Below are positions 6,689-22,525 of a DNA stretch of 22,525 bases, piece after piece. Source of the DNA: an uncultured Sphingobium sp. (lineage in GTDB: Bacteria > Pseudomonadota > Alphaproteobacteria > Sphingomonadales > Sphingomonadaceae). The stretch's first letter is position 1; each line of letters starts with the position of its first letter. Position numbers and translations under genes: made by a program. The notes under the pieces were generated by a model, which did no database searches, was not told the origin of the DNA, and saw only the letters and a program-made list of their open reading frames with translations. The stretch covers positions 1 to 22,525 of the forward strand of contig CAMLFF010000013.1 of NCBI GenBank assembly GCA_946479185.1, written 5' to 3'.

Positions 6689-6763
6689 GGGCGTGTAGCT
6701 CAGTGGTAGAGCACTGTGTTGACATCGCAGGGGCCGCAAGTTCAATCCTTGCCACGCCCACCA
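6689..6763 (+). tRNA. tRNA-Val (anticodon GAC); probable integration site of the adjacent element
   Basis: A 75-nt cloverleaf with encoded CCA. The acceptor stem is GGGCGTG (6689-6695) with CACGCCC (6753-6759), then A and CCA at 6761-6763. The anticodon stem is CTGTG/CGCAG around TTGACAT, anticodon GAC at 6721-6723. The T-arm is GCAAG-TTCAATC-CTTGC. A tyrosine recombinase gene begins about 720 nt downstream and mobilisation genes follow, so the 3' half of this tRNA is the natural candidate for the attachment site; the second att copy is outside the window. Confidence 0.97.
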
Positions 6764-7094: not shown

Positions 7095-7616
7095 ATGTCG
7101 AGTAAAGATCCCGCGTCCGTGGCTGCTGGCCATACGGACGTGGCGGTGCCGTCGGCGCGAGCCGAGCCGTCACCACAGGCCAGCATGGCGGATCCACCGT
7201 CATCTGTTGAGCCGAGTGCACGTCGCTCGGGGCGTGATGTCGACCAAGTCGACGCTGCGCTCCCGTCGTCGTGTGATCTCGATGAGAGCCGAGCGGCCCC
7301 CTGGCCAGGTCGGCAGCGTCTGCTCACGCCTGAGCAAATCGCTGATCAGCTTCAAGTCCGGAGCGCCGATCCACGCAGGTGGATGCGCCGGACATTCAAG
7401 AAACACGGCGTTCAGTATCTGAACGTCGGCGGCCAACTGCGCGCCTCCCAGGCGCTGGTCGATCAACTCATGGAGAAAATGACGTGCTCTCACTCCGTAC
7501 CCGGGGTAAGTCCGGGATATACTACATCCGTGGCTCGGTGTCGCTCAACCGGCAAACCATCGCCGTCAAAGAATTCAGTACAGGAACAAGTGACAAGGAT
7601 GCTGCGTCCCACGTGA
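7095..7616 (+). CDS. Putative HTH DNA-binding protein (excisionase-like), overlapping the integrase
   Basis: 173 residues in the longest form. Residues about 1-75 are low-complexity, rich in Ser, Ala and Pro. Then LLTPEQIADQLQVRSADPRRWMRRTFKK followed by GVQYLNVGGQLRASQALVDQLMEKM resembles the helix-turn-helix plus wing of excisionase/HTH_17 proteins, where a lead helix LLTPEEVA, a DNA-facing turn and a G-G-x-x-R wing are typical. It runs 133 nt into the integrase gene in another frame, and the residues after MEKM look unconserved, so the natural protein may end near 7480 through a frameshift or may simply overlap. Position and type suggest recombination directionality control or integrase regulation. 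Real gene is likely; the exact ends are uncertain. Confidence 0.6.
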   Translation: MSSKDPASVAAGHTDVAVPSARAEPSPQASMADPPSSVEPSARRSGRDVDQVDAALPSSCDLDESRAAPWPGRQRLLTPEQIADQLQVRSADPRRWMRRTFKKHGVQYLNVGGQLRASQALVDQLMEKMTCSHSVPGVSPGYTTSVARCRSTGKPSPSKNSVQEQVTRMLRPT

Positions 7617-8521
7617 TGGCGCAGTACGAGATGGAACTGCGTAACGAACTGCTCTTCGGCCCGGCCGCCAAGGTCGCGGATGGTGTGTTGGCAGATGCAT
7701 TCTCGACATATCTGAACAAGGCTAAGCGTCCGCACCCTTCGGACGTTCTGCGCATAGGAGTGCTCAATAGCCACGTCGGAGATATGAGCCTGCGGGACAC
7801 GCGCAAGGCGTGGGAGACATTTCGAAGCGCCTATCTTTCAAGTCACGCGCTTGCCGGCCAAGATCGGTATCGTGCGCTTTTCCAAGCGGCCGTGAACGCG
7901 CACAACGAACTGTATGGGGTTGCTCCATGCAAGATTCCTCCCATCAAGTTCAAAAATCAGCGGGTTAGATGGCTGCGCTTGGATGAACGTGATCGGTTGA
8001 TAGCGAGCTATCCCAAGCATGTTCAACCCATCATCCTGATGTTGGCTTTCCACGGCCCTCGGACGCAAGACGCGTTGCAAATCCAGTGGGGTGTGCAGGG
8101 CGTCGATATGATCGACGAGAGGATCACGTTCGACTACCGCAAGACCGACACCACGATCTATGTGCCGCAGCATCCACGGGTAAATGAGGCGCTTCAGTCA
8201 CTTTGGGAAGCTCGCGGCAAGCCAGAGGGCGGCCATGTTTTCTTGAACCGTTTAGGCAAACCTTTTCAGGATACTCGCAAAGCGCCCATTCCGGGAGGGA
8301 ATCCCCTCCGGTCCGCACACGCGACCGCGTGTACCAAGGCAGGGATCACTGATTTCACCGTGCATGATTGGAGGCACCATTGGGCCTCTCATTGCGTTAT
8401 GGCCGGCATCGATCTCATAACCATCCAGCAGTGGGGAGGCTGGGAATCGCTGCGTATGGTACAGCGGTATGCAACGGTTGGTGTGGAACACATGCGCGAC
8501 GCCATTGCGAAGCTTAAATAA
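7484..8521 (+). CDS. Tyrosine recombinase / integrase
   Basis: 345 residues from GTG 7484. The N-terminus (GKSGIYYIRGSV..QTIAVKEFSTGTSDKDAA) is an arm-type binding domain as in phage-type integrases, a core-binding domain spans about 60-165, and the catalytic domain is complete: Arg193 (HGPRTQDAL), the beta-hairpin Lys in YRKTDTTIYVP, His294-x-x-Arg297 (HDWRHHW), Trp320 (WGGW) at the second His position, and nucleophile Tyr329 (QRYATVG). It should catalyse site-specific integration and excision, most plausibly at the neighbouring tRNA-Val. The frame is open further upstream to 7379, but that part overlaps the HTH coding region and lacks integrase character, hence the GTG choice. It ends TAA 8519-8521. 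Confidence 0.92.
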   Translation: MLSLRTRGKSGIYYIRGSVSLNRQTIAVKEFSTGTSDKDAASHVMAQYEMELRNELLFGPAAKVADGVLADAFSTYLNKAKRPHPSDVLRIGVLNSHVGDMSLRDTRKAWETFRSAYLSSHALAGQDRYRALFQAAVNAHNELYGVAPCKIPPIKFKNQRVRWLRLDERDRLIASYPKHVQPIILMLAFHGPRTQDALQIQWGVQGVDMIDERITFDYRKTDTTIYVPQHPRVNEALQSLWEARGKPEGGHVFLNRLGKPFQDTRKAPIPGGNPLRSAHATACTKAGITDFTVHDWRHHWASHCVMAGIDLITIQQWGGWESLRMVQRYATVGVEHMRDAIAKLK

Positions 8522-8710: not shown

Positions 8711-10492
8711 TCATCTGCGACGGAGGACGGCCCGCATCGGCTCCAACGCTGATGATGCGACTGTCATCGCAAGGAACTGAGCGGCGCGCACAGCGATGCG
8801 ACGATCAACATCGCTGTCGGGCGCTTTAGCCAGCGGAACTAACGAGTTTCGGAAATGGCCACCTGCGCCAGCGTAACGTGCGCGGGCGACCACACGGCGT
8901 TTTATGTACGCAGGCGTGCCGCGTTTCGGCTCCCGCGACACTCGTGCAGCGTAATGGGACAGATCGTCGCCGTGGCGGTCAAGCCAAAGGTGAGGGTGAT
9001 ACAACGCAGTATATCCCTCCGCACCTGCTGGCGGCAGCCGGTGCATCACTCTTCTGGCTGCCTGGCAAAATTTTCCTCCAAATTTGCTGTGCATTGCAAG
9101 AACTTCCAGTTCTTCAGCCGCTTCGTTCACGAGACAATCCAGAGTTGAAGGATCTGTGAAGCGGAGGCCCTTGTCTCGCCCAGCCCTCAGTTGTCCTTCA
9201 ATGACCGGTCTGAGCGCCGTTCGCAAAGCTCCCATCGAATAACTTTCGAGCCAAAAGTGAGCGATTGTGGCAGCCGCCTGGTCGAGAGAATGGTCTCTGC
9301 CGGTGGGGGAAGATGCGCGTCTAAGATTTACGGGGCCAGAACGTGCATTACGAAACGTACGGTTCCAAGCCCGCGCCTGTTCGGCAATCATTATCAGCCC
9401 AACCGCTGCGTGGTTGCGCCAGCTTAGCGACCAGTAGGTCGCCGCGAGATCCTTGCGCAGGGATTCTCCCTGGCCCTCACGTTTCTGGGGTCGCAGAAAG
9501 GAGTGGTTGCTGACCTTCCTTGCGACGCGCGCCGGCTGTGCTTTTGGCATCGTGTCAAAAAGTCGATCTGCGAAGGTCTTGCCGTATTCATCAAAGCCTT
9601 GATGCAGTCTATCCAATCGGTTTCGGATCCAGCGAAACTGTCTGTCGGGGGCCAGCCCTTCCAGCAGAGTTTGTGGAGGGATAGCTGCAGTCGTCTGCAG
9701 CGAAGCCAGCTTCATCAGCCGGTCAGCTAGCAGTGATGGCTTTTGCACTTCGTCTAAACCGGTCATCTCCCGCTTCAGGTCGGCAACGGAAACCTCATTG
9801 CCACGCCAGTCAAACGATAGGGCGAGAAGCGCCGCGTGATTTTGGGCAAGGCGCGCGAGTTCGTAGAGTAGCGCGAGGAAGTAAATGGGCGGAACGAGGT
9901 CGAGGCCTTTCTGGGTGCGCTTCCAACGTTTTTGAGTGACAGCTGGCCATTTGTCGTCTTCCAATTGCGGCGATCGATTAAGCGCACCCTCCAGGTCTTT
10001 CGCCAGGACGAGGCGTCCGAGTTCTGGTTCCCGGTGAAGTAGATCAGCCAAATACTCAGCCGCATCGCGGACCGTGTGGCCAACGAGCGACCGGATGAAC
10101 ACGTCTCGACCTTCACCACGTTCCGCATCTGGACTTGCTGAGACAAGGAACGGATCGCCATCGCTGACAGAGTGTGCCGGACAGCAATCTGGGTGGATCC
10201 GCAATTGACGCCAGAGGCCTGACGCGATCTCATCGACGTCCATATCCAAGGAGAGGATCGCTGCTCCTTGAGCCTCGCACTTGTCGATCAAAATGTTCAG
10301 GTGGGGGGCCCGCCACACGCCGACGCGTGGCGGATCCAGCCTAGAGATATCGAGTGCGTAATCCCAGCCCGGCAGCAGCAACTCTGCCGCCGTTGCGACC
10401 ATCGTGGGATCGCCAGTCTCGTGCAATTTCACGTGGCTGGCGACAATTTCGAGCTCGCTCCAGACATCTATGTAACCAGTCATAGTTGTCAC
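8711..10492 (-). CDS. Hypothetical protein of the mobile element (593 aa)
   Basis: No family recognised. About 593 residues, soluble in appearance, with no signal peptide or membrane segment. The C-terminal third is strongly basic (stretches such as AYIKRRVVARARYAGAGGHFRN and MRAVLRRR), which would suit nucleic-acid contact, and there is a His/Trp-rich block LYHPHLWLDRHGDD. No nuclease, helicase or polymerase signature could be seen. The start is GTG 10492, or ATG 10483 three codons on, neither with a good ribosome site. It is the last gene of a three-gene minus-strand operon, 6 nt after the stop of the 93-residue gene, so it is probably co-expressed and tied to transfer or maintenance of the element, or is cargo. 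Confidence 0.75.
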   Translation of the reverse strand: MTTMTGYIDVWSELEIVASHVKLHETGDPTMVATAAELLLPGWDYALDISRLDPPRVGVWRAPHLNILIDKCEAQGAAILSLDMDVDEIASGLWRQLRIHPDCCPAHSVSDGDPFLVSASPDAERGEGRDVFIRSLVGHTVRDAAEYLADLLHREPELGRLVLAKDLEGALNRSPQLEDDKWPAVTQKRWKRTQKGLDLVPPIYFLALLYELARLAQNHAALLALSFDWRGNEVSVADLKREMTGLDEVQKPSLLADRLMKLASLQTTAAIPPQTLLEGLAPDRQFRWIRNRLDRLHQGFDEYGKTFADRLFDTMPKAQPARVARKVSNHSFLRPQKREGQGESLRKDLAATYWSLSWRNHAAVGLIMIAEQARAWNRTFRNARSGPVNLRRASSPTGRDHSLDQAAATIAHFWLESYSMGALRTALRPVIEGQLRAGRDKGLRFTDPSTLDCLVNEAAEELEVLAMHSKFGGKFCQAARRVMHRLPPAGAEGYTALYHPHLWLDRHGDDLSHYAARVSREPKRGTPAYIKRRVVARARYAGAGGHFRNSLVPLAKAPDSDVDRRIAVRAAQFLAMTVASSALEPMRAVLRRR

Positions 10493-10498
10493 TCATCT

Positions 10499-10780
10499 CT
10501 AGAGCTTGCCAATCAGCGCAACAAGTTCATCCTCCATTTCCATTGCCTCTGCGTTAACGGCGCGCAGCCACTTGGCTTCGAATTCGAGAAATTCCAACAG
10601 CAAGGCCGTAAGTTCTTGAATGTCGGTTCGCGATTTTTCGTCACGGTTCTGCTCGAAACGAACTCCGGCGTCTTTCAGCCAGCCCAGCGTTTGCGTAATC
10701 TGGAGCTGGAGCAGCTTCAGATTGCCGAATGTGAACGGGCCATCTGCAGCCATGAATTCGCGTTCTTCATTCTCGACCAT
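10499..10780 (-). CDS. Small acidic hypothetical protein (93 aa)
   Basis: 93 residues, acidic, predicted mostly helical (NLKLLQLQITQTLGWLKDAG, then LLLEFLEFEAKWLRAVNAEAMEME). No family recognised. The ATG at 10778-10780 lies 3 nt after the stop of the upstream 203-residue gene and its stop lies 6 nt before the next gene, so the three form one operon. Its small size, acidity and coupling to a basic coiled-coil partner suggest it may bind that partner; this is inference only. Confidence 0.7.
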   Translation of the reverse strand: MVENEEREFMAADGPFTFGNLKLLQLQITQTLGWLKDAGVRFEQNRDEKSRTDIQELTALLLEFLEFEAKWLRAVNAEAMEMEDELVALIGKL

Positions 10781-10783
10781 GGC

Positions 10784-11395
10784 TCAGTCTTCCAAGGCGC
10801 TGTTGCGAAGGCGCAGATTGCCGCCGTGGTGGCGGATCCAGTCTGCGGCTTGGCCCCGGCTGAGGCCATGCGGCGCGTCGATCTCAAGGTAATGCGCGAT
10901 GCGCTCGATCAGGAAACCTTGCAGTGCCGTTGGGCGCTTGGCGCGCCAGTCATCGGACTTCGTCATGTCGGCGCGCCGGGCATCGAAACTCGCGCACTCG
11001 GCCTCATAATCGAGGCGAGCCCGTTCGAGAACAAGGCGTTCGCCTTGGCGTGTCCATTCTTCGCGATTTTCCAGGACTGCGGCGAGTTCGACGTCGACCT
11101 TAGTGCGTCCTGGTCGATCAAACTCTGCGACCGCATGGACATAGTCAGTCATACGAAGATGGCTCAGATACATGCGTGCCGAAGCCAACTCGCCGTGGAA
11201 TCCCGCAAGACGCTCCGGATACGCAAGCGCCATGCGGTGCCAGGTCTCATGGCGTGCGGTACCGGCGCGGATAGCTGCGCGTGCTTCACGTTCTCGCGCC
11301 TTAAGTTCTTTGATCTTCTCACTCAGCCGTTCCGCAGCGATCTTGGCTTTTTGAAGTCGCTGTTGACGGCGTCGATCGGTCTTATCAAATTGCAT
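10784..11395 (-). CDS. Coiled-coil hypothetical protein, possible mobilisation accessory (203 aa)
   Basis: 203 residues. The N-terminal ~45 residues (TDRRRQQRLQKAKIAAERLSEKIKE and on) form a basic coiled coil. A helical middle follows, and the C-terminal block (ALQGFLIERIAHYLEIDAPHGLSRGQAADWIRHHGG) looks like a compact conserved domain. The family is not recognised. It is the first gene of the minus-strand operon, reading away from the relaxase gene and sharing a repeat-rich 322-nt intergenic region with it, the place where relaxosome accessory proteins usually lie. The start ATG 11395 has a good AGGAG (11404-11408 on the minus strand). A role as MobC-like accessory is a guess from position. 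Confidence 0.72.
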   Translation of the reverse strand: MQFDKTDRRRQQRLQKAKIAAERLSEKIKELKAREREARAAIRAGTARHETWHRMALAYPERLAGFHGELASARMYLSHLRMTDYVHAVAEFDRPGRTKVDVELAAVLENREEWTRQGERLVLERARLDYEAECASFDARRADMTKSDDWRAKRPTALQGFLIERIAHYLEIDAPHGLSRGQAADWIRHHGGNLRLRNSALED

Positions 11396-11717: not shown

Positions 11718-13643
11718 ATGATGGTAGCATCGGAAGGTGGGATTTGGGCGCGGGCGGATGCCCGCGTTTTTAAGCTCATGATGGCCCCGGGGAAGGCTGA
11801 TCGCAAAGCATTGGCGGCGGATCGCACCATGGCAAATGCAGCGAGGCAGGTCGCGTCATTGCGCCAGCGAGCAGCCTCCAAGGCGGCGCGAGACTTTCGT
11901 CAGGCCGATCGGGCCGTCGAAGCGGAAATGCGCCAAAGAAGCTGGGGCAAACCAATCCATGTCAAAGCGAAAACATCGCGCCGGCGGCAACCGGGCGGGG
12001 CGGCGCGCGCTCAGATTTCGAAGAGCGCAAAGACTCAGAAACGTGCGTTTCGCGCCTATGTCGCGCCACTTAAGGATGCGCGCGGTCGTGTCGCGATTAC
12101 GTTTCTGACGAGTTATCAAGGCTTCAAATCCAAGAACTGGCGCAGCGGGCTTTCGGTTGATCATGCACGCTATATCTTACGTGCCGACGCGCTGGAGCAG
12201 CCCGACGGACCGCTGATCTCAAACATGGGAGAAACCCGGCACGAAATCGCTGATTGCTGGCGGGCGCTTGAAGAAGTCGAGAAGGCCTATCGCGCCAATG
12301 CAAAAGTGCAGATGCGCATCATCTGGAATCTCCCGCATGAACTTAGCGCCAATCAGCGCCACGAGATGATAAACCGCTTCTGCGAGCGTGAGTTCGCGAG
12401 GTTGGGGTTGCCGTACGTTGCGGCAATTCACGCGCCGGATCCTGATGGCGATCAGCGCAATTATCACGTTCATATCTGCTTTTCGACGCGGCCGGTTGAG
12501 CGCCTGGGTGATCATGAGTGGCTAATCGCGCAGGAGAAGATGACCGGGCTGGATGACGCGGTCGGTTTACGTCGGCTGCGTGCAGTGGCCGCTGCACAAA
12601 TGAACCTTGCTTCCCGCAGCGCGGGTTTGCCGAACCTGTATACGCATCAGAGCTATCGGGACCGCGGCCTGAATGCGGTTCGCCAGACCCATGTCGGCCC
12701 TGCGCGCACCGCTGCGTACCGTTCTGGTGAGGACGTACATGTGGTCGCGCACAACGCCGAACGTGTCGCTCGCAATGAAGTGTCGGTCGGCCTGCAGCAG
12801 GCGAACGCATATGCTCATCGTCTGGATGTCGTCGCGCGCCGGATTGAACACGTGCATGCTGAGGCGCAGAGCAATAATCGGCGGCAACGAGCTCTACGCG
12901 CAATGCAGATGAGGATTGCCACGCTTCCTCGCAGTGAAGATGGGCCGATCGGACACAGCCGTCCTGATCTCCTGGCGATCCTGGAAAAGTTGGCGCGTAC
13001 CTGCCTTTTGAAGCCCGCCTTGGCAGCGGAGGTTCAGGCGCAGCGCTGTGATCAACGGATCGGGCTGAAAAAGTTAGGCGAGCTATCGACCCTACTGGCG
13101 AAAAGGCGCCCTGTATCCGGGCGCGATCCGCAGACGGTCGAAACCCTCCGAGCAACTGCCAATCTAAGCACGTCGACAACGCGTCCTGTGCTGTCCGACG
13201 GCGCACTGACTGAAAGCCTACTCGAACTCCAGTTGAGCATTCGACAAACGGTCAAGATGAACCAGTCTCGAAGAACGGCTTCGCTGCTAAACCAAGAACG
13301 CGCCCGGTCGATCGAACTTGTGATGAGGCCTTTTGATCAAGCCCGCACTGCCGGGGACGAGGTCGAGCAAACGCGTTTGGCGCGCCAGGAAGACATGGCG
13401 GGTGTCGCACGCGCTTTCCAGGCAGAGATTGATGAGGCTGCTTGGACCGCTTGGCGCCAAGCGCGTCGCGAACGGCGTGTTGAGGAACAACAACGTCTTG
13501 CTTACGATCTCTTGAGGAAAACCGAGATGAAGGGCGCTTCTGCGAGCGCGGCACCCGAGATGGAGCTGGTCTTAGCAGATGCTCGAGCTTGGCAGCAAAG
13601 GCTCGCCCTGCTGCAGAAAGCGCGAAACGGCCGCGGGATGTGA
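11718..13643 (+). CDS. MobA/MobL-type (MOBQ) relaxase
   Basis: 641 residues. A relaxase nicks oriT and carries the strand into the recipient. After a basic, helical N-terminal extension of ~115 residues, VAITFLTSYQGFKSKNWRSGLSVDHARYILRA aligns with the start of MOBQ relaxases, placing the catalytic tyrosine at Tyr152. The metal centre follows: Glu208 in NLPHELS, His238 in AAIHAPDPDGD, and His250/His252 in NYHVHICFSTR. The rest (about 300-641) is a long helical, charged C-terminus of no recognised function; no helicase or primase motif is seen. ATG 11718 has a strong CAGGAGAAG Shine-Dalgarno (11705-11713); a second ATG follows at once. No type IV secretion genes are in the window, so the element would rely on a helper. 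The N-terminal extension is unusual because MOBQ proteins normally begin almost at the catalytic tyrosine. Confidence 0.87.
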   Translation: MMVASEGGIWARADARVFKLMMAPGKADRKALAADRTMANAARQVASLRQRAASKAARDFRQADRAVEAEMRQRSWGKPIHVKAKTSRRRQPGGAARAQISKSAKTQKRAFRAYVAPLKDARGRVAITFLTSYQGFKSKNWRSGLSVDHARYILRADALEQPDGPLISNMGETRHEIADCWRALEEVEKAYRANAKVQMRIIWNLPHELSANQRHEMINRFCEREFARLGLPYVAAIHAPDPDGDQRNYHVHICFSTRPVERLGDHEWLIAQEKMTGLDDAVGLRRLRAVAAAQMNLASRSAGLPNLYTHQSYRDRGLNAVRQTHVGPARTAAYRSGEDVHVVAHNAERVARNEVSVGLQQANAYAHRLDVVARRIEHVHAEAQSNNRRQRALRAMQMRIATLPRSEDGPIGHSRPDLLAILEKLARTCLLKPALAAEVQAQRCDQRIGLKKLGELSTLLAKRRPVSGRDPQTVETLRATANLSTSTTRPVLSDGALTESLLELQLSIRQTVKMNQSRRTASLLNQERARSIELVMRPFDQARTAGDEVEQTRLARQEDMAGVARAFQAEIDEAAWTAWRQARRERRVEEQQRLAYDLLRKTEMKGASASAAPEMELVLADARAWQQRLALLQKARNGRGM

Positions 13644-13867: not shown

Positions 13868-13896
13868 TTGCATCAACTACGGCTAAGCCGTATAGT
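13868..13896 (+). promoter_or_regulatory. Promoter of the defence operon with palindromic operator
   Basis: TTGCAT (13868-13873) and TATAGT (13891-13896) are separated by exactly 17 nt, a strong sigma-70-type pair. The spacer holds a perfect 15-nt palindrome TACGGCTAAGCCGTA (13878-13892; 7-bp arms, central A) that overlaps the -10 box. It lies 36 nt before the ATG of the XRE regulator, which suggests autorepression or control-protein-type timing. Function is inferred from layout. Confidence 0.6.
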
Positions 13897-13931: not shown

Positions 13932-14183
13932 ATGCCTTACAATCACGGGGTAAATGTCGTGGCAGGTCTCCCTAACATCGATGTTCGGGCAGTAAGACGC
14001 GAACGTGGACTGACGCAGAAGGCATTCGCCGACACGTTCGGGTTCACCATCGGGGCGGTTCGCGATTGGGAGCAGGGAAGGAAGCGCCCCGATCGCGCAG
14101 CGCGGATACTTCTCACTGTGATTCAATCCGCCCCGGACGCGGTTGCCAGCGCAGTGGTCAAAATCGGGCATGGTGACACCTGA
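13932..14183 (+). CDS. XRE-family HTH regulator, control-protein-like
   Basis: 83 residues. A single Cro/C1-type helix-turn-helix covers residues 19-60: VRAVRRERGLTQKAFADTFG is helices 1-2 and TIGAVRDWEQGRKRPD carries the recognition helix and the typical W-E-x-G-R turn, close to NadS/HigA-type regulators. No toxin partner is adjacent. Instead the next gene is vsr, which overlaps its 3' end by 14 nt. In restriction-modification loci, small XRE proteins (C proteins) delay nuclease expression; here it sits at the head of the operon behind a palindrome-containing promoter, so the same logic is probable. ATG 13932 has a poor ribosome site, and an internal GTG at 13959 (residue 10) is an alternative start. 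Confidence 0.82.
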   Translation: MPYNHGVNVVAGLPNIDVRAVRRERGLTQKAFADTFGFTIGAVRDWEQGRKRPDRAARILLTVIQSAPDAVASAVVKIGHGDT

Positions 14184-14616
14184 TGTCCGGAAAACGCTGA
14201 TGGATGTTGTGACTCAAGAGAAGCGGTCTGCGATGATGGCTAATATCGGAAGTCGCAATACCCGACCCGAACTCGCTGTTCGCCGCGCCGCGTATCGGCT
14301 GGGCTTGCGATTTCGGCTGTATCGTCGAGATCTGCCGGGGTCCCCAGATCTGGTCTTTCCCCGGCGAAAGACCGCGCTATTTGTCCATGGCTGCTACTGG
14401 CATCGCCATACTGGATGCAAATGCGCTTATACACCAAAGTCGAATGTTGAGTTCTGGCTGAATAAACTCCAGACTAACGTCTCTCGAGATATCCGCGTCA
14501 GGCAAGAACTCGAAGACGGGGGGTGGAATGTCGTTGTCATCTGGGAGTGCGAAACCAAGGACGCCAAGATCATCACCGACATTCTAACGCACGAGGTCTG
14601 CAATGCTACCCGCTGA
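14170..14616 (+). CDS. vsr: Vsr, very short patch repair endonuclease
   Basis: 148 residues from ATG 14170, the usual Vsr length. Vsr nicks next to T in T:G mismatches that arise when 5-methylcytosine deaminates, so that the repair restores C:G. Landmarks: RSAMMANIGSRNTRPE, LPGSPDLVFP (catalytic Asp60), FVHGCYWHRHTGCKC (His73, His78 and metal-binding Cys), VEFWLNKLQTNVSRD (Asp107) and VVVIWECE. An in-frame TTG at 14143 and an ATG at 14200 are alternatives; 14170 gives a short coupling overlap with the XRE stop. The gene overlaps the methyltransferase by 14 nt, matching the known pairing of vsr and dcm-type genes. Confidence 0.93.
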   Translation: MVTPDVRKTLMDVVTQEKRSAMMANIGSRNTRPELAVRRAAYRLGLRFRLYRRDLPGSPDLVFPRRKTALFVHGCYWHRHTGCKCAYTPKSNVEFWLNKLQTNVSRDIRVRQELEDGGWNVVVIWECETKDAKIITDILTHEVCNATR

Positions 14617-16096
14617 ATGCTCGGCGACACGACGCAGCAAAGCCGAGCGTCTGCGCAGCGGCGCGGCGCCACGCGTGCTCGAAATTTGCTCGGGTTGTGG
14701 AGGGCTGTCGCTCGGACTTTCCTCTGCAGGCTTTGCTCTTGCAGCGCATGTCGAAATCGATCCCGAGGCAGCGGCCAGCTACGCCCTTAATTTTGGCGCC
14801 GAGCGCCCAGCCGATGATCCATGGGCAATCGCGCGCGACATGGAGCGCTGCTCAGCCGAAGATATCGTAGAACACCTCAAGCTGGATGTCCCGACCGCTC
14901 AGGCGTTCGACGTCATTGCAGCGGGGCTGCCATGCCAGGCATTTGCCCGCATCGGTCGATCAAAACTCCGCGCAGTTGCGGGCAAAGAGGATGCGTTCCA
15001 GACCGATCCACGGGCTGCACTCTATCGACGCTTTCTCGACTATGTCCGCGATACGCAGCCGCTCGCGATCGTTATCGAGAACGTGCCGGACATCCTGAAC
15101 TTCGGCGGCCACAACGTGCCCGAGGAAATCTGCGACACGCTTGAGGAGGAGGGATATCGAGCTGCCTATACGATCCTCAATGCCGCTTATTTCGGGGTGC
15201 CTCAGGTCCGCGAACGGCTGTTCATCATCGCGATCGCCAATACGTTGGGTGTCGATCCGGCATTTCCCGATCCTACGCATTTCTTGGAGCTGCCACGGGG
15301 ATATGAGAGCTCCCGTCGCGTCGCCCTGAAGTATGTCGATGAGAACAGTCCTCATTTTCACAAGGTTCACAAGCCATCGGACGATTTGACCCGCGCTGTC
15401 GGGGTGCGGGCGGCACTTGGCGACCTGCCCAGAATTATCGAACACCGAACCGATCCCCGCACAATGCGTCGACGCAAGTTGGACGATGTTCTGCCATATC
15501 GTGAGCGCAAGAGCGACTTGCCGGACTATGCGAAGGTGATGCGCAGCTGGCCGGGCTTCGCTACGCAAACCGGTGCTGGCGGGCATCTCGTGCGCATCAC
15601 GCCGCGAGATTTTCCTATCTTCCGTTCCCTGGCGCATGGCGCCGATTATCCGCAGGCGCGTCAACTTGCGGAAGTGATGTTCGAGGCAGCCGCTCGCTCG
15701 AAAGGTCTGACTGTTCGCGATGACGGATCTGAGCAGTGGCAGGCACTGCGGAAATCAATCGTCCCGCCTTACGATCCCGGCAAGTTTCCGAACAAATGGT
15801 GGAAGCTCGAGCCGCTCAAGCCCAGCAGGACGTTGACGGCACATATCGGCAAGGACACCTATTCGCATATCCATTACGACAGCTATCAGAGCCGGACGAT
15901 TTCCGTCAGGGAGGCCGCCCGGCTGCAGTCCTTTCCGGACGGATTCCGTTTTGCCGGAGCCATGAACGCGGCGTTCAAGCAGATCGGCAATGCGGTCCCG
16001 CCGCTCTTGGGCAAGGTAGTTGCAGAAGCGCTCAAGAGGCAGATGGATGCCGGCGTCGCGTCAATGGACGATACCACCGACCTCGAAGCTGCCTAA
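14603..16096 (+). CDS. DNA (cytosine-5) methyltransferase
   Basis: 497 residues with all the main C5-methylase motifs in order: I EICSGCGGLSLGLSSAGF (from residue 27), IV GLPCQAFARIG (nucleophile Cys111), VI IENVP (Glu159), VIII VPQVRERLF (200-207), a long variable target-recognition region (about 215-420), then IX-X ISVREAARLQSFPDGF and FKQIGNAVPPLL. It methylates position 5 of cytosine in a specific sequence that cannot be read from the protein. ATG 14603 has GAGG (14593-14596) six bases ahead. It is placed between vsr and the ATPase, so it probably provides the self mark of the defence operon. No classical type II nuclease is adjacent; the restriction function is presumably in the downstream genes. 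Confidence 0.95.
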   Translation: MLPAECSATRRSKAERLRSGAAPRVLEICSGCGGLSLGLSSAGFALAAHVEIDPEAAASYALNFGAERPADDPWAIARDMERCSAEDIVEHLKLDVPTAQAFDVIAAGLPCQAFARIGRSKLRAVAGKEDAFQTDPRAALYRRFLDYVRDTQPLAIVIENVPDILNFGGHNVPEEICDTLEEEGYRAAYTILNAAYFGVPQVRERLFIIAIANTLGVDPAFPDPTHFLELPRGYESSRRVALKYVDENSPHFHKVHKPSDDLTRAVGVRAALGDLPRIIEHRTDPRTMRRRKLDDVLPYRERKSDLPDYAKVMRSWPGFATQTGAGGHLVRITPRDFPIFRSLAHGADYPQARQLAEVMFEAAARSKGLTVRDDGSEQWQALRKSIVPPYDPGKFPNKWWKLEPLKPSRTLTAHIGKDTYSHIHYDSYQSRTISVREAARLQSFPDGFRFAGAMNAAFKQIGNAVPPLLGKVVAEALKRQMDAGVASMDDTTDLEAA

Positions 16097-16100
16097 CCGC

Positions 16101-17642
16101 ATGACGCAACAGGAGATCGAGCCGGACGAGAATTTCGATCATGCTCCGCCCGGCGCGAGCGCCATGCTCGAGTCTCTTCGCGGCATCGGCTATTCTCCTG
16201 CGGCAGCAGTTGCGGACCTGATCGATAACAGTATTGCTGCCGGAGCGACCAGGGTCCGTGTCGATTTCGAATGGCGCGGCCCCGCTTCGATAGTTCGCAT
16301 CACCGACAATGGGCGCGGCATGGATCGCAAGGCTTTGGTCGAAGCGTTGCGCCCTGCCGGAAGGCATCCGCTTGAGCCCCGGGAGCCCGAAGATCTTGGC
16401 CGTTTTGGACTAGGATTGAAGACCGCCTCCCTCTCTCAAGGGAGTTTGATGGCCGTCGCTTCACGTATTGAGGGTGGTGGGATCCAGGCTCGCTATTGGG
16501 ATCTGGCACATGTTGCCGATGTGGATGCCTGGCAATTGTTGCGGGGTATGCCCGCGGAAATTGCCCAGGATGCCGATATTCTCTCGGACTGTCCTCAGGG
16601 GACTGTCGTTGTCATCGCCCGGCTGGATCGCATGCTGGGCAGAGAACTCACCGACGATGCAACCGATCGTCAGCGATTCTATACCCTTGCCCAGGCAGTG
16701 GAACGTCATCTGTCGATGACCTTCCATCGTTATATCGAAGGGGCGAACCCGCGCCTTGTCATAACTTTCAATGGTGATGACGAAGCGCAGCAGGTGATTC
16801 CCTGGGATCCTTTCATTTCGCAGCACAAGGCAACCGCGCCTACACCCGTCGAAACCATCCGGCACAGCGGAGGCACGATCGAGGTCCAGGGCTTCGTTCT
16901 GCCACATCGCGACCGGATGAGCAGCGCCGAGTTCGGGAAAGCCGAAGGCCCTTCCGGCTGGCAGGCTCATGAAGGCTTTTTCGTTTATCGGGGTGAGCGC
17001 CTGCTTGTCCCGGGCGGGTGGCTGGGATTGGGTCCCGGCCGCGGCTGGGCGCAGAACGGCATCCACCGCCTTGCCCGGATCAGACTCGACCTTCCCACTA
17101 GCGGCGACCAGGACTGGAAGGTGGATATTCGCAAGTCGATTGCGATCCCGCCACCATCCCTCCGCAAACGACTGCAAGCCCTGGCGGAAACCGTACGTCG
17201 CGATGCACGGGAAATCTTCGCGCAGCGCGCCGGTGCCGGCAGCCGCAAACAGCGCGAACAGCTCATCCGCGCCTGGGCGCCGGTACACACCAGCCGGGGC
17301 GTGTCCTACCGCGTCGACCGTACCCATCCTTCGGTTCGGCACGCGCTGGATGCGGTCGGCGACAAACGGCGGATCATTGAAGAGATGCTTGCCGTCATCG
17401 AGGCAACGGTGCCGGTGCAGCGTATCTGGATCGATGTCAGCGAGACGGCGGATTCGACAGCGCCGAAGGCCGGGCCGACGCTTTCTAACGATGAAGCCGC
17501 TGCCCTGTCATCCCTCTATCATCATATGCGCACCGCGCTGAAGCTCAGCGCTGACGAAGCGCGCGCACGATTGATGACACTCGAACCCTTCTCATCCTAT
17601 CCCGATGCGATCAGAAAGCTCCTTGACGAGGTGGCGCGCTGA
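16101..17642 (+). CDS. MORC/MutL-like GHKL ATPase of restriction-associated type
   Basis: 513 residues. The N-terminal GHKL (Bergerat) ATP site is clear: motif N AVADLIDNSIAAGATRV with Asp39 at the usual general-base Glu position and Mg-binding Asn43, motif G1 ITDNGRGM (Asp69, Gly71, Gly73), and motif G2 GRFGLGLKTAS (100-110). An S5-like domain follows, with DWKVDIRKSIAIPP holding the conserved lysine that reaches into the ATP site. The C-terminal ~150 residues are helical and charged. Iyer, Abhiman and Aravind (2008) described such prokaryotic MORC relatives in restriction-modification operons with Z1 helicases and restriction-fold nucleases; the same partners are here. It probably dimerises on ATP binding and clamps DNA. 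ATG 16101 starts 4 nt after the methylase stop; no strong ribosome site, so translational coupling is likely. Confidence 0.88.
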   Translation: MTQQEIEPDENFDHAPPGASAMLESLRGIGYSPAAAVADLIDNSIAAGATRVRVDFEWRGPASIVRITDNGRGMDRKALVEALRPAGRHPLEPREPEDLGRFGLGLKTASLSQGSLMAVASRIEGGGIQARYWDLAHVADVDAWQLLRGMPAEIAQDADILSDCPQGTVVVIARLDRMLGRELTDDATDRQRFYTLAQAVERHLSMTFHRYIEGANPRLVITFNGDDEAQQVIPWDPFISQHKATAPTPVETIRHSGGTIEVQGFVLPHRDRMSSAEFGKAEGPSGWQAHEGFFVYRGERLLVPGGWLGLGPGRGWAQNGIHRLARIRLDLPTSGDQDWKVDIRKSIAIPPPSLRKRLQALAETVRRDAREIFAQRAGAGSRKQREQLIRAWAPVHTSRGVSYRVDRTHPSVRHALDAVGDKRRIIEEMLAVIEATVPVQRIWIDVSETADSTAPKAGPTLSNDEAAALSSLYHHMRTALKLSADEARARLMTLEPFSSYPDAIRKLLDEVAR

Positions 17643-17643
17643 T

Positions 17644-20541
17644 ATGGCGATCAACCCAGATTTTCAGCTGGAGCTCGTGCAGATGGCCCAGCTTAGACTG
17701 TCTCAGCGTGTAGCGGATGCTCCGTTATCAAGGGAGGAGATTGGCGCAACGCTCGATCGGCTGTTCTCCGCATTTCCCGAATGGCGCAACGAAACCTCGC
17801 GCGACGCGGCAATCGCGCAGCTGGGCACGATTTTCAGCACCTTCATCGGCGATGAATCCGTACTTCGCGCCGACGACAGTCACCTGCCATGGCTCAACGA
17901 ACGCCGGGACGATATCCGCTGGAAGTTCTGGGAGCGTTACAGAAGCTACTTGATCCGGCATCAGCTTCCTCAACCCGCAATCAACTCGCTCAATCGGATC
18001 ACTGACCGTATTCTCGATCTGTGCGGCAATCCGGCGAACGAGGGCAAGTTTGATCGGCGCGGCATGGTCGTGGGTGACGTTCAATCGGGCAAGACCGGAA
18101 ACTATACCGGTCTGATCTGCAAGGCGACCGATGCGGGTTACAAGGTCATTATCGTTCTGACCGGACTCAACAACAATCTGCGCAGCCAGACGCAGATCCG
18201 GCTTGACGAAGGATTCATCGGCAAGATCAGCGTACCGATCGGCGAGACCAGTTCGCGGGTTATCGGTGCCGGCCAGATTGACCCCTCGGCTATCGTCGAC
18301 TGGGCGACCAATCGAACCGAAAAAGGCGACTTCAACTGGAAAACGATGTCGCAGTTCGGCGTTCACCCCGGCGGGCGTCCGTTGCTGCTCGTCGTCAAGA
18401 AGAATGCCAGCGTCCTCAATGGCGTAATCGAATGGATTCGCCTTACCGCCAATTCCAACGATCACGGAAGGCCGCGTTTTACGGGCATGCCATTGCTCGT
18501 GATCGATGACGAAGCCGACAACGCATCTGTAGATACCCGCCCGCAGAGCTTTACGGGCGGCGTCGCCGACGCTGACCACAAGCCGACCGCGATCAACTCG
18601 AAGATCCGTCAGATCGTCAACAGCTTCGATCAGGTTTCCTATGTGGGCTATACCGCAACACCGTTCGCCAACATCTTCATCCACCCTGACGCTGAAACCG
18701 GGAAGGAGTTTCAGGACCTCTTTCCTCGGGATTTCATCGTCAACATGCCGACGCCCAACAATTACATCGGCGCATCACGCATCTTTGGCTATGCGCGCGA
18801 GGACCAAGAGGGAAGCGAGGAAGAAGATGTTACCGGACTTACCCACCTGATTGTTCCGGTCGAGGATCATGCCGGGAGTCTCTCGAGACGCGAGACGCTC
18901 GGCTGGATGCCGCCTGTCCACAAGGTCTTCCATGTGCCACTGGTTAACGGCGACGATGTCGTTCCGGATTCGCTGCTTAAGGCGATGCGATCCTTTGTGC
19001 TTGTCGTCGCCGCGCGACGAGAGCGCGGACAAAGCCGCGCACACAACAGCATGCTGATCCATGTCACTCGTTTTCAGGCGGTCCAGAAGCGCGTCATGGC
19101 TCAAGTGCAGGAAGCGCTGGATACGCTGGCCAATGATATCCGCTATGGCGGGCAGATCGGACTGGCACCGTTCCGCGAGCTGTGGGAAATCGAGTTCGAA
19201 CCGGTCACGCGCAGCCTCGACCTTGAAGACTGTCCGCCAGTCGCTTGGCCAGATCTGGAAATAGCGTTGCGCGCGACCGTGAGCTCGATCAGCGTGCGGG
19301 AGATCAACGGCAGCTCTGCCGATGTCCTGGACTATGATCTCAACAAGGATCAGGGCCTCAACGTCATCGCTGTAGGAGGCGACAAGCTGGCCCGTGGGCT
19401 CACGTTGGAAGGCCTGTCGATCACCTATTTTCTCCGTGGCTCGACCATGTATGACACGCTCATGCAGATGGGCCGCTGGTTCGGCTATCGACAGGGCTAT
19501 CTCGATTTGTGCCGGCTGTTCACGACACAGGATCATATCGACTGGTACGGACACATTGCGCATGCGAATGACGAGCTGCGCCGCGAGTTCGACCGGATGG
19601 AGGCGATCAACGCCAGCCCGACGCAGTTCGGCTTGCGCGTCCGCAGTCACCCGAGCCTGACCGTCACCTCCCGCGCCAAGATGCGGCATGGAACCGAACT
19701 GCAGGTGTCGTTTGCCGGCGACATCTCCGAAACAACGGTCTTCTCGACCACGCCGCGGGTCCTGGAACAGAACCATGCTGCCGCTTCGGACTTCCTCGGA
19801 CGGCTGGCGGATGACGGCATCGCGCACATTCCCGACCCCGAACAGCCCCGGCCCAGCGGTCGCATGAACCGCTGGAAGGGATCACATCTGTGGACCGGAG
19901 TGCCGGCAGACTATGTCTTGTCGTTTCTCGAGATGTTATCGACTCACGAAGACGCCGCGCGTGCGAACGCGCCTGTCCTGGCGAAATATATCCGCGAGCA
20001 GGTTCGGCGTGGCGAACTGGTCGACTGGAATGTCCTTCTCGTCGGCGGCGACGGCGACAAGGTGGTGCTTGGTCCCTGGAGCGTGAATGCGCCCATACGC
20101 CAGCCCAAGGGTGGCTACGGCCCTGATCTGAGCCGTCCCCGCCTCATCAGGCCTGGCGAGCGTTTCGTCATTCGGCGCCTCCTCAACCCACGCGATGAAT
20201 CGGTCGATCTGGGTTCCGACGCCTATGCCGCGGCCATGGTCGACACGCTCGCAGCCCCACCGAAGCGCAAGCGCAAGACTGACAGGCCTCCCGAAGCACC
20301 CTCTGGCGTGTTTCTTCGTCAATATCGCCCGCCGAACCGCGGCCTGCTGCTGCTCTATCCGCTCGCTCGCCGCCAAGAGATCGACGACAACGGACGCAAG
20401 TTTGACCATGTTTTCCTTCCCGTCGACACGCCCCCGATCGGATTGGGCATCAGTTTCCCGGCGAGCGAGAACGCAAAATCCGTCAGCTACATGGTCAACA
20501 GCATTTACGGGGCTGGCGACGACGATGATGGCGACGCATGA
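17644..20541 (+). CDS. Z1-domain superfamily 2 helicase-like ATPase
   Basis: 965 residues from ATG 17644, 1 nt after the stop of the ATPase gene. Helicase motifs: Walker A GDVQSGKTGNY (Lys150), Walker B VIDDEADNAS (Asp288, Asp289, Glu290), motif III YTATPFAN (336-343), and motif VI QMGRWFGYRQGY (arginine finger candidates Arg611 and Arg616). GDVQSGKT and the D-D-E-A-D-N box plus QMGRWFGYRxGY are typical of Z1 proteins, which occur only in restriction/defence-like loci. The N-terminal ~130 residues and C-terminal ~300 have no recognised fold; a basic KRKRK patch is near residue 875. Likely a DNA translocase that couples recognition by the GHKL ATPase and nuclease. Start chosen by junction; an upstream in-frame GTG-type start at 17605 would overlap the previous gene. 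Confidence 0.9.
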   Translation: MAINPDFQLELVQMAQLRLSQRVADAPLSREEIGATLDRLFSAFPEWRNETSRDAAIAQLGTIFSTFIGDESVLRADDSHLPWLNERRDDIRWKFWERYRSYLIRHQLPQPAINSLNRITDRILDLCGNPANEGKFDRRGMVVGDVQSGKTGNYTGLICKATDAGYKVIIVLTGLNNNLRSQTQIRLDEGFIGKISVPIGETSSRVIGAGQIDPSAIVDWATNRTEKGDFNWKTMSQFGVHPGGRPLLLVVKKNASVLNGVIEWIRLTANSNDHGRPRFTGMPLLVIDDEADNASVDTRPQSFTGGVADADHKPTAINSKIRQIVNSFDQVSYVGYTATPFANIFIHPDAETGKEFQDLFPRDFIVNMPTPNNYIGASRIFGYAREDQEGSEEEDVTGLTHLIVPVEDHAGSLSRRETLGWMPPVHKVFHVPLVNGDDVVPDSLLKAMRSFVLVVAARRERGQSRAHNSMLIHVTRFQAVQKRVMAQVQEALDTLANDIRYGGQIGLAPFRELWEIEFEPVTRSLDLEDCPPVAWPDLEIALRATVSSISVREINGSSADVLDYDLNKDQGLNVIAVGGDKLARGLTLEGLSITYFLRGSTMYDTLMQMGRWFGYRQGYLDLCRLFTTQDHIDWYGHIAHANDELRREFDRMEAINASPTQFGLRVRSHPSLTVTSRAKMRHGTELQVSFAGDISETTVFSTTPRVLEQNHAAASDFLGRLADDGIAHIPDPEQPRPSGRMNRWKGSHLWTGVPADYVLSFLEMLSTHEDAARANAPVLAKYIREQVRRGELVDWNVLLVGGDGDKVVLGPWSVNAPIRQPKGGYGPDLSRPRLIRPGERFVIRRLLNPRDESVDLGSDAYAAAMVDTLAAPPKRKRKTDRPPEAPSGVFLRQYRPPNRGLLLLYPLARRQEIDDNGRKFDHVFLPVDTPPIGLGISFPASENAKSVSYMVNSIYGAGDDDDGDA

Positions 20542-21542
20542 GCGCCGTCGACGAAGCCTGGAAGGCGCTGCGTGACGAGCGCCGCACCGAAGCCGGATGG
20601 CATCTTCGGCGACTCTATCCCGAGGCTTCGTGCGAGCTGTTCGCCGGGATACATCAGCCGGATGGCGCGCCGGGATTGATTGTCGAGGTCGACGTAGCGG
20701 CCATTGCATCCACGGTCCGCATGCCGAAATCAGCCGGCTTCCATGTCGACAGCATATTGCTTGGTCACAGTCATTCGGGCCGGGTCAGGATTGCGCTTTC
20801 CCTGGCGCACCCCGCCTATTCCGCGGTGTTTGCCGTATTGTGCGTCGACGCGGCTGGCGTCACCGCTTCGCAGGCCGATGCAGTATCGGCCGTTTCAGCT
20901 TTTGTCGGACGTCTGCACGTCTGGCAGGCGTTCATGGCGCGCCATGGACCAGACGGACTTTCCGAAACAGCGGTGATCGGCTTGATGGGGGAACTCCATA
21001 TACTGGCGGCACATCTGGCCCCGCTAGTCGGGATCGAACACGCGCTCGGTGCCTGGGCGGGACCACGCGGCGAAGCCAATGATTTCAGCCTCGCGGCGGG
21101 CTATTTGGAGATCAAGGCGACGATACGCCAGGCACCGGACAGCCTCCCGATTTCCAATGCCAGTCAGCTAGACATCCGGCGGGGCCGGATACTGCTTGGT
21201 CACTTGCGCTTCCGCCCCGCCCCGGAAGGCGCGACGTTGCCTGAAATGGTGGAAGCAATCCGTATGCAGCTGGCGGAGGAGGTTCCGGCCGCCATCCCGC
21301 AGTTCGAGGAATTGCTCCTCGCCGCGGGCTATGTCGATGCACATAGCGAGAGTTATATGCTGCATCTCGAACCCGATGGCCTGAAGTTGTTCGAAGTGAC
21401 TGCGGATTTCCCGCGTATCGCTCCCGACGAGCTTCGCGCCGGCGTTTTGGATTGTTCCTACACAATCGATCTTGGCGCCTGCGCGCCCTGGGCCGTGCCG
21501 GGATCGACCCTTGTTTCACTCACGGGAGATGCAGATGGCTGA
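20538..21542 (+). CDS. PD-(D/E)XK nuclease, DUF4420-like
   Basis: 334 residues, sharing an ATGA start-stop overlap with the helicase gene. The nuclease core is visible: Glu152 in VIGLMGELHIL, Asp182 in GEANDFSLAAGYL, and Glu191-x-Lys193 in LEIKATIR, the order E...D...ExK expected of the restriction-endonuclease fold. The N-terminal half (about 1-140) is a beta-rich domain and the C-terminal part (about 200-334) helps complete the fold. PD-(D/E)XK motif (DUF4420) proteins accompany Z1 and AIPR genes. It is the most likely DNA-cleaving subunit. The active-site residues appear intact, so the system is probably functional. Confidence 0.87.
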   Translation: MSAVDEAWKALRDERRTEAGWHLRRLYPEASCELFAGIHQPDGAPGLIVEVDVAAIASTVRMPKSAGFHVDSILLGHSHSGRVRIALSLAHPAYSAVFAVLCVDAAGVTASQADAVSAVSAFVGRLHVWQAFMARHGPDGLSETAVIGLMGELHILAAHLAPLVGIEHALGAWAGPRGEANDFSLAAGYLEIKATIRQAPDSLPISNASQLDIRRGRILLGHLRFRPAPEGATLPEMVEAIRMQLAEEVPAAIPQFEELLLAAGYVDAHSESYMLHLEPDGLKLFEVTADFPRIAPDELRAGVLDCSYTIDLGACAPWAVPGSTLVSLTGDADG

Positions 21543-22525
21543 GGATCGCGACCTGCCAAAGTTCGCGATCGAACTTCAATCGGAAATCGCCGACTGCGCA
21601 CTTGGGGACATGGAGGGCGGCGACTTCACCGAGAACGCCTTTGTGAATGTCGTTGCGGAGCATCTCGCGGATATCGGGATGATCGAGAATCCGGTCACCT
21701 GTCATTTCCCCGGGAAGGTGGGCACCGGCATCGTAAGAATCTCCGGCTACGCTATTCCAGACGACGGCGAGCGGATCGACCTGCTCGTCGCGATCTTCGG
21801 CGGAACCGGGATCCCTTCGACGGTATCGGCGACCGACATGAAGCGCATCGCGGGCCAGGGTGCCCGTGCATTGCTTGCCGCCAGCCGGAACATCCATCTC
21901 GAGCTGGAGACAGCAAACGACCGCTACGCCATGATGGAGCGCATTTCCGAACTGCTCGCGGCAGGCACGAAGCAGGCCCGCGTGACCGTTATCACCGACG
22001 GACTTTCGGCTGCACAGTCGCTTGAATCCGCAACGGTTGCCGGCGTTGATGTGAGTTTCGAGATCTATGACATCCGCCGCCTGATGCGGACAATGCGTTC
22101 GGGACAACCACGCGAGATCATCGATATCGATCTTGCGACTCTAAGAATGCCGGCTATCCCCTGTGTGGCGATGCCGCCCGGTGCGGAGCCGTATGAGACG
22201 TACCTCGCCATCTTTTCGGGTGACACGCTCTACGAACTTTATGAGGCGTACGGGCCGCGCATTCTGGAATTCAACGTGCGCGCCTTTCTTCAGGCCACAG
22301 GCAAGGTCAATCGCGGCATCCGCGATACGATCCGCGACCAGCCGGGCTATTTCATGGCATACAACAACGGCATTTCAGTCACGGCGGATGAAGTGCGAAC
22401 TGCAGTTGTCGCGGGCGTAACCGTCATTACCGGCTTCAAGGGCATGCAGATCGTCAACGTCGGCCAGACGTCGGCCTCCATTCATCGTGCTCGAAAACGC
22501 GATCGGCTGGATCTGTCCCGAGTTC
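21535..22525 (+). CDS. AIPR-family protein (abortive infection phage resistance), 3' cut by window
   Basis: ATG 21535, with GGGAGA before it, overlaps the nuclease stop by 8 nt; the frame stays open for 330 codons to the window end. The AIPR hallmark block is clear from about residue 240: ILEFNVRAFLQATGKVNRGIRDTI, then QPGYFMAYNNGISVTADEV, then GMQIVNVGQTSASIHRA. The signature in relatives is usually N-G-G/C-Q-T, here N-V-G-Q-T. The N-terminal half (about 20-200) has a nuclease-like pattern (ERIDLLVAIFGG about 82-93), which may be an HJC-like/restriction-fold domain; this is less certain. AIPR proteins are named after a component of the lactococcal AbiR phage-resistance locus. It closes the visible part of the operon; further genes may follow outside the window. 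Confidence 0.88.
   Translation, partial: MAEDRDLPKFAIELQSEIADCALGDMEGGDFTENAFVNVVAEHLADIGMIENPVTCHFPGKVGTGIVRISGYAIPDDGERIDLLVAIFGGTGIPSTVSATDMKRIAGQGARALLAASRNIHLELETANDRYAMMERISELLAAGTKQARVTVITDGLSAAQSLESATVAGVDVSFEIYDIRRLMRTMRSGQPREIIDIDLATLRMPAIPCVAMPPGAEPYETYLAIFSGDTLYELYEAYGPRILEFNVRAFLQATGKVNRGIRDTIRDQPGYFMAYNNGISVTADEVRTAVVAGVTVITGFKGMQIVNVGQTSASIHRARKRDRLDLSRV

Follow-up and report, generated by a model that had tools for sequence, protein, structure and literature searches.

What kind of defence system is encoded at the right end of a 22,525-nt stretch of uncultured Sphingobium DNA (contig CAMLFF010000013.1, the whole of which is called the window here), and how does it relate to systems already catalogued? 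A seven-gene, defence-like operon, read on the plus strand throughout, is a real feature of the window; it looks like an MZA relative with a DNA methylase of its own attached directly to it, and the kind itself has already been described. The operon opens with an XRE/HTH_3 regulator of 83 amino acids (13932..14183; Pfam HTH_3, 28.4 bits), a Vsr very-short-patch-repair endonuclease (14200..14616, with an alternative start at 14170; Pfam Vsr, 96 bits; TIGR00632, 138 bits against a cut-off of 98) and a C5-cytosine DNA methyltransferase of 497 amino acids (14603..16096; Pfam DNA_methylase, 187 bits). The core follows: a MORC-family GHKL ATPase homologous to MzaB (16101..17642; HATPase_c_3, 86.5 bits), a fifth gene placed as a Z1 helicase in the original prediction (17644..20541), a DUF4420 PD-(D/E)XK nuclease homologous to MzaD (20538..21542; DUF4420, 236 bits) and an AIPR protein homologous to MzaE, which is cut by the window end (21535..22525; AIPR_N, 111 bits; AIPR, 98 bits). 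The one-strand layout claimed in the original prediction holds, and the gene identities are borne out by the Pfam and defence-catalogue searches that it had proposed. In PADLOC, the core proteins from MORC to AIPR match the MZA proteins with 407, 732, 105 and 223 bits, where the AIPR score comes from the truncated protein; this homology to a catalogued system is what the original prediction overlooked.

The window core is homologous to MZA (PADLOC MzaA-E; NCBIfam NF041931-NF041935), with gene order and strand compared. It differs in that the XRE regulator, Vsr and methylase share its operon, and it falls outside the MzaA clade. Its NCBIfam scores lie below the equivalog cut-offs, at 486 of 850, 834 of 1500 and 191 of 420 for MzaB-D (45-57%); for MzaE the score is 261 of 1050 on the truncated window protein and 539 of 1050 on the full-length relative in locus L002. 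By comparison, L113, a plasmid locus that does carry MzaA, scores 87-101% of the cut-offs for MzaB-E and 61% for MzaA, with MzaE alone passing. Two MzaA queries, run at E 1e-5, found no match to this sigma-70-like protein in the window or its three closest relatives (L001, L002 and L012). Weak MzaA-like matches (25-35 bits) occur in L005, L006 and L008 on the opposite strand after AIPR; because the window ends inside AIPR, a gene further right would lie beyond the view of this search. The MzaA proteins of L113 (6214-8466) and L114 (6605-8488) consist of N-terminal ankyrin repeats and sigma-70 regions 2-4, an odd makeup for defence.

The precedent of Iyer et al. 2008 (PMC2292703), cited in the original prediction, also holds. 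As its text describes them, the operons of the third type share with the window a MORC protein with GhXhhpXXRhl, a superfamily II helicase with DThhQXuRhFG, a restriction-endonuclease-fold nuclease with E-D-ExK, a DNA cytosine methylase (DCM), Vsr and AIPR; judged from that text the gene content shows no essential difference, and the system was put forward as a prediction only. Compared at the level of gene families, nearly the same genes make up a predicted defence system (type II) in section 11 of Miller et al. 2022 (PMC9523054), the main text of which does not name Vsr (0 occurrences); the same source associates its type I with DNA repair endonucleases and calls mzaABCDE validated. CglI and NgoAVII (PMC4267653), as described there, are functional analogues from another family, with a PLD nuclease carrying a B3 recognition domain and without MORC, DUF4420 or AIPR.

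The MORC signature GFFVYRGERLL lies at 16974-17006, and a regular expression on the G, hydrophobic and R positions of GhXhhpXXRhl (p and X left free) finds them kept in 78 of the 78 rows with letters there. The GHKL boxes are conserved, and the protein carries both the GHKL and the S5-domain motifs of prokaryotic MORC (Iyer 2008). In the DUF4420 nuclease, whose AlphaFold model has a pLDDT of 95.6, the E-D-ExK residues E152, D182 and E191-x-K193 are invariant across a 55-row alignment that includes the window. The methylase has the PCQ, ENV and GNAVPP motifs, and its solved relatives include DNMT1 and M.HhaI.

The distribution of the methylase and Vsr speaks both for and against a functional tie to the core. 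For it, 42 of the 44 well-flanked full-core loci have a methylase nearby (a count without a random-locus control), and this gene stands immediately ahead of MORC, in the same orientation, in the window and in 15 others of the 83 loci. Against it, methylase and Vsr take 11 different side and strand combinations among the 55 loci that have the full core and both of these genes, and each of the two tracks the other, not the core. The best reading of Vsr is as repairing deaminated methyl-cytosine, not as cutting phage DNA: a role as restriction nuclease was rejected because Vsr tracks the methylase and never occurs without it in the 44 well-flanked loci. Two short-flank loci (L049 and L067) show it with no methylase. 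Further restriction enzymes in some loci also speak against such a tie: an EcoRII-like one next to Vsr and methylase in L114, a restriction endonuclease next to the methylase in L113 and an AspBHI-like one behind AIPR in L002 and L012.

From sequence, methylation is a plausible self-mark, and we tentatively extend this to a broader reading, which we regard as possible and still doubtful. The window would represent a lineage outside the MzaA-bearing MZA systems, where a restriction core of four proteins inherited together is coupled directly to a methylase-Vsr cassette that can be exchanged. DUF4420 (MzaD) would be the subunit matched to the cassette and so select the unmarked DNA to be attacked. 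AIPR (MzaE) would be a nucleoside triphosphate-gated subunit of restriction-endonuclease fold, built like a FokI-type domain fused to a ParB/SspE-type switch rather than a HEPN suicide toxin. DUF4420 does co-vary with the methylase. In methylase type B, however, the co-varying segments are N-terminal and the target region carries no such signal, for which reason DUF4420 as target reader on co-variation alone was rejected and kept as a lead. MORC residues ~241-360, around the S5-domain motif (292-302), also co-vary with the methylase (sliding windows, uncorrected for window number).

Several further observations weigh against the guard model, in which the methylase would protect the cell's own DNA from a restriction core. 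The core genes of L079 and L080 are each 80-91% identical to those of L068, L074 and L076-L078, yet only one methylase is matched in their stretch, and it belongs to a different family (26-29% identity); to hold here, the guard model needs either a target sequence in common or a further methylase that escaped notice, and these loci fit methylation as a self-mark awkwardly. Their methylase is of the window's group and lies elsewhere, which looks like an exchange of methylases. In 2020 Gao and colleagues reportedly tested mzaABCDE against phage as a set lacking a methylase; the core may thus work without a methyl self-mark. Finally, all 76 aligned rows have Asp at MORC residue 39 (16215-16217), the N-box position of the catalytic Glu in GHKL ATPases.

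The AIPR protein bears on a rival explanation, in which the core would act as a sensor of infection and AIPR as the agent that kills or arrests the host, with cutting of phage DNA secondary. The family name and literature favour such abortive infection, AIPR having been described with an N-terminal HEPN toxin domain (Makarova 2012; PMC3506569). The model, built on the full-length L002 relative, suggests instead that a domain resembling restriction endonucleases is fused to one resembling ParB. The N-domain lacks the canonical D-(D/E)xK residues across 46 rows: E33 and D82 are each present in 42, but position 84, where our reading of strand order places the expected lysine, is F, Y, I or L in 45, so the domain may not be a DNA cutter, which speaks for the rival and against the guard model. 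Abortive infection through AIPR, as originally proposed, goes unsupported by the model, and we consider it improbable. A second, longer AIPR gene lies behind the first on the same strand in L035, L038, L040 and L060, the L035 copy being confirmed by Pfam.

Further subunits past AIPR, also anticipated originally, find no support, AIPR being the last operon gene in the three closest relatives; they were rejected because the next open reading frame is on the opposite strand in all three (in L001, among those listed). It is a 938-amino-acid frame without a Pfam match in L001 and a restriction-enzyme gene in the other two. This enzyme, of the modification-dependent type with RE_AspBHI_N and Mrr_cat domains (L002:15976-17262 and L012:15977-17161, minus strand), stands tail to tail with AIPR in these 2 of the three relatives. 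Restriction enzymes of the AspBHI kind cut methyl-cytosine DNA, and such a neighbour is at odds with an operon expected to make methyl-cytosine.

At the operon head, 39 nt upstream of the XRE start, lies the inverted repeat TACGGC-TAA-GCCGTA (TACGGCNNNGCCGTA; 13878..13892, no strand assigned), a candidate operator. The window holds a single exact copy of this pattern, and of 127 loci only L002 and L012 have it, in both near the operon head and inside poorly conserved DNA in the alignment. Of 80 loci compared by phmmer, one (L012) has a match to the regulator; by eye, L002 apparently retains only part of it, and L001 has neither an XRE match nor a good repeat. The restriction of the repeat to these operon heads, with an XRE homologue in L012, points to an autoregulatory operator that the regulator would bind.

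The operon is carried by a mobile element, as had been proposed: a tyrosine integrase (7379..8521, plus strand; Phage_integrase, 62.6 bits) and a MobA/MobL relaxase (11718..13643, plus strand; MobA_MobL, 55.7 bits) precede it. The relaxase has matches in 520 plasmid records, 0 of which cover >80% of its length. Three element genes of unassigned kind (593, 93 and 203 amino acids; 8711-11395, minus strand) gave no PADLOC match, and those of 593 and 203 amino acids no Pfam match either. With up to 3 mismatches allowed, no second copy of the 3' end of the tRNA-Val(GAC) gene (6689..6763, plus strand; ARAGORN), the probable integration site, was found within the window, and the right end of the element therefore lies beyond it. 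The element very probably entered at this tRNA gene, because a response regulator followed by tRNA-Val is kept in two Sphingomonas genomes (G002 and G004, loci L081 and L082; regulator identity 76% and 73%), and past the tRNA their sequence departs from the window in a comparison by eye.
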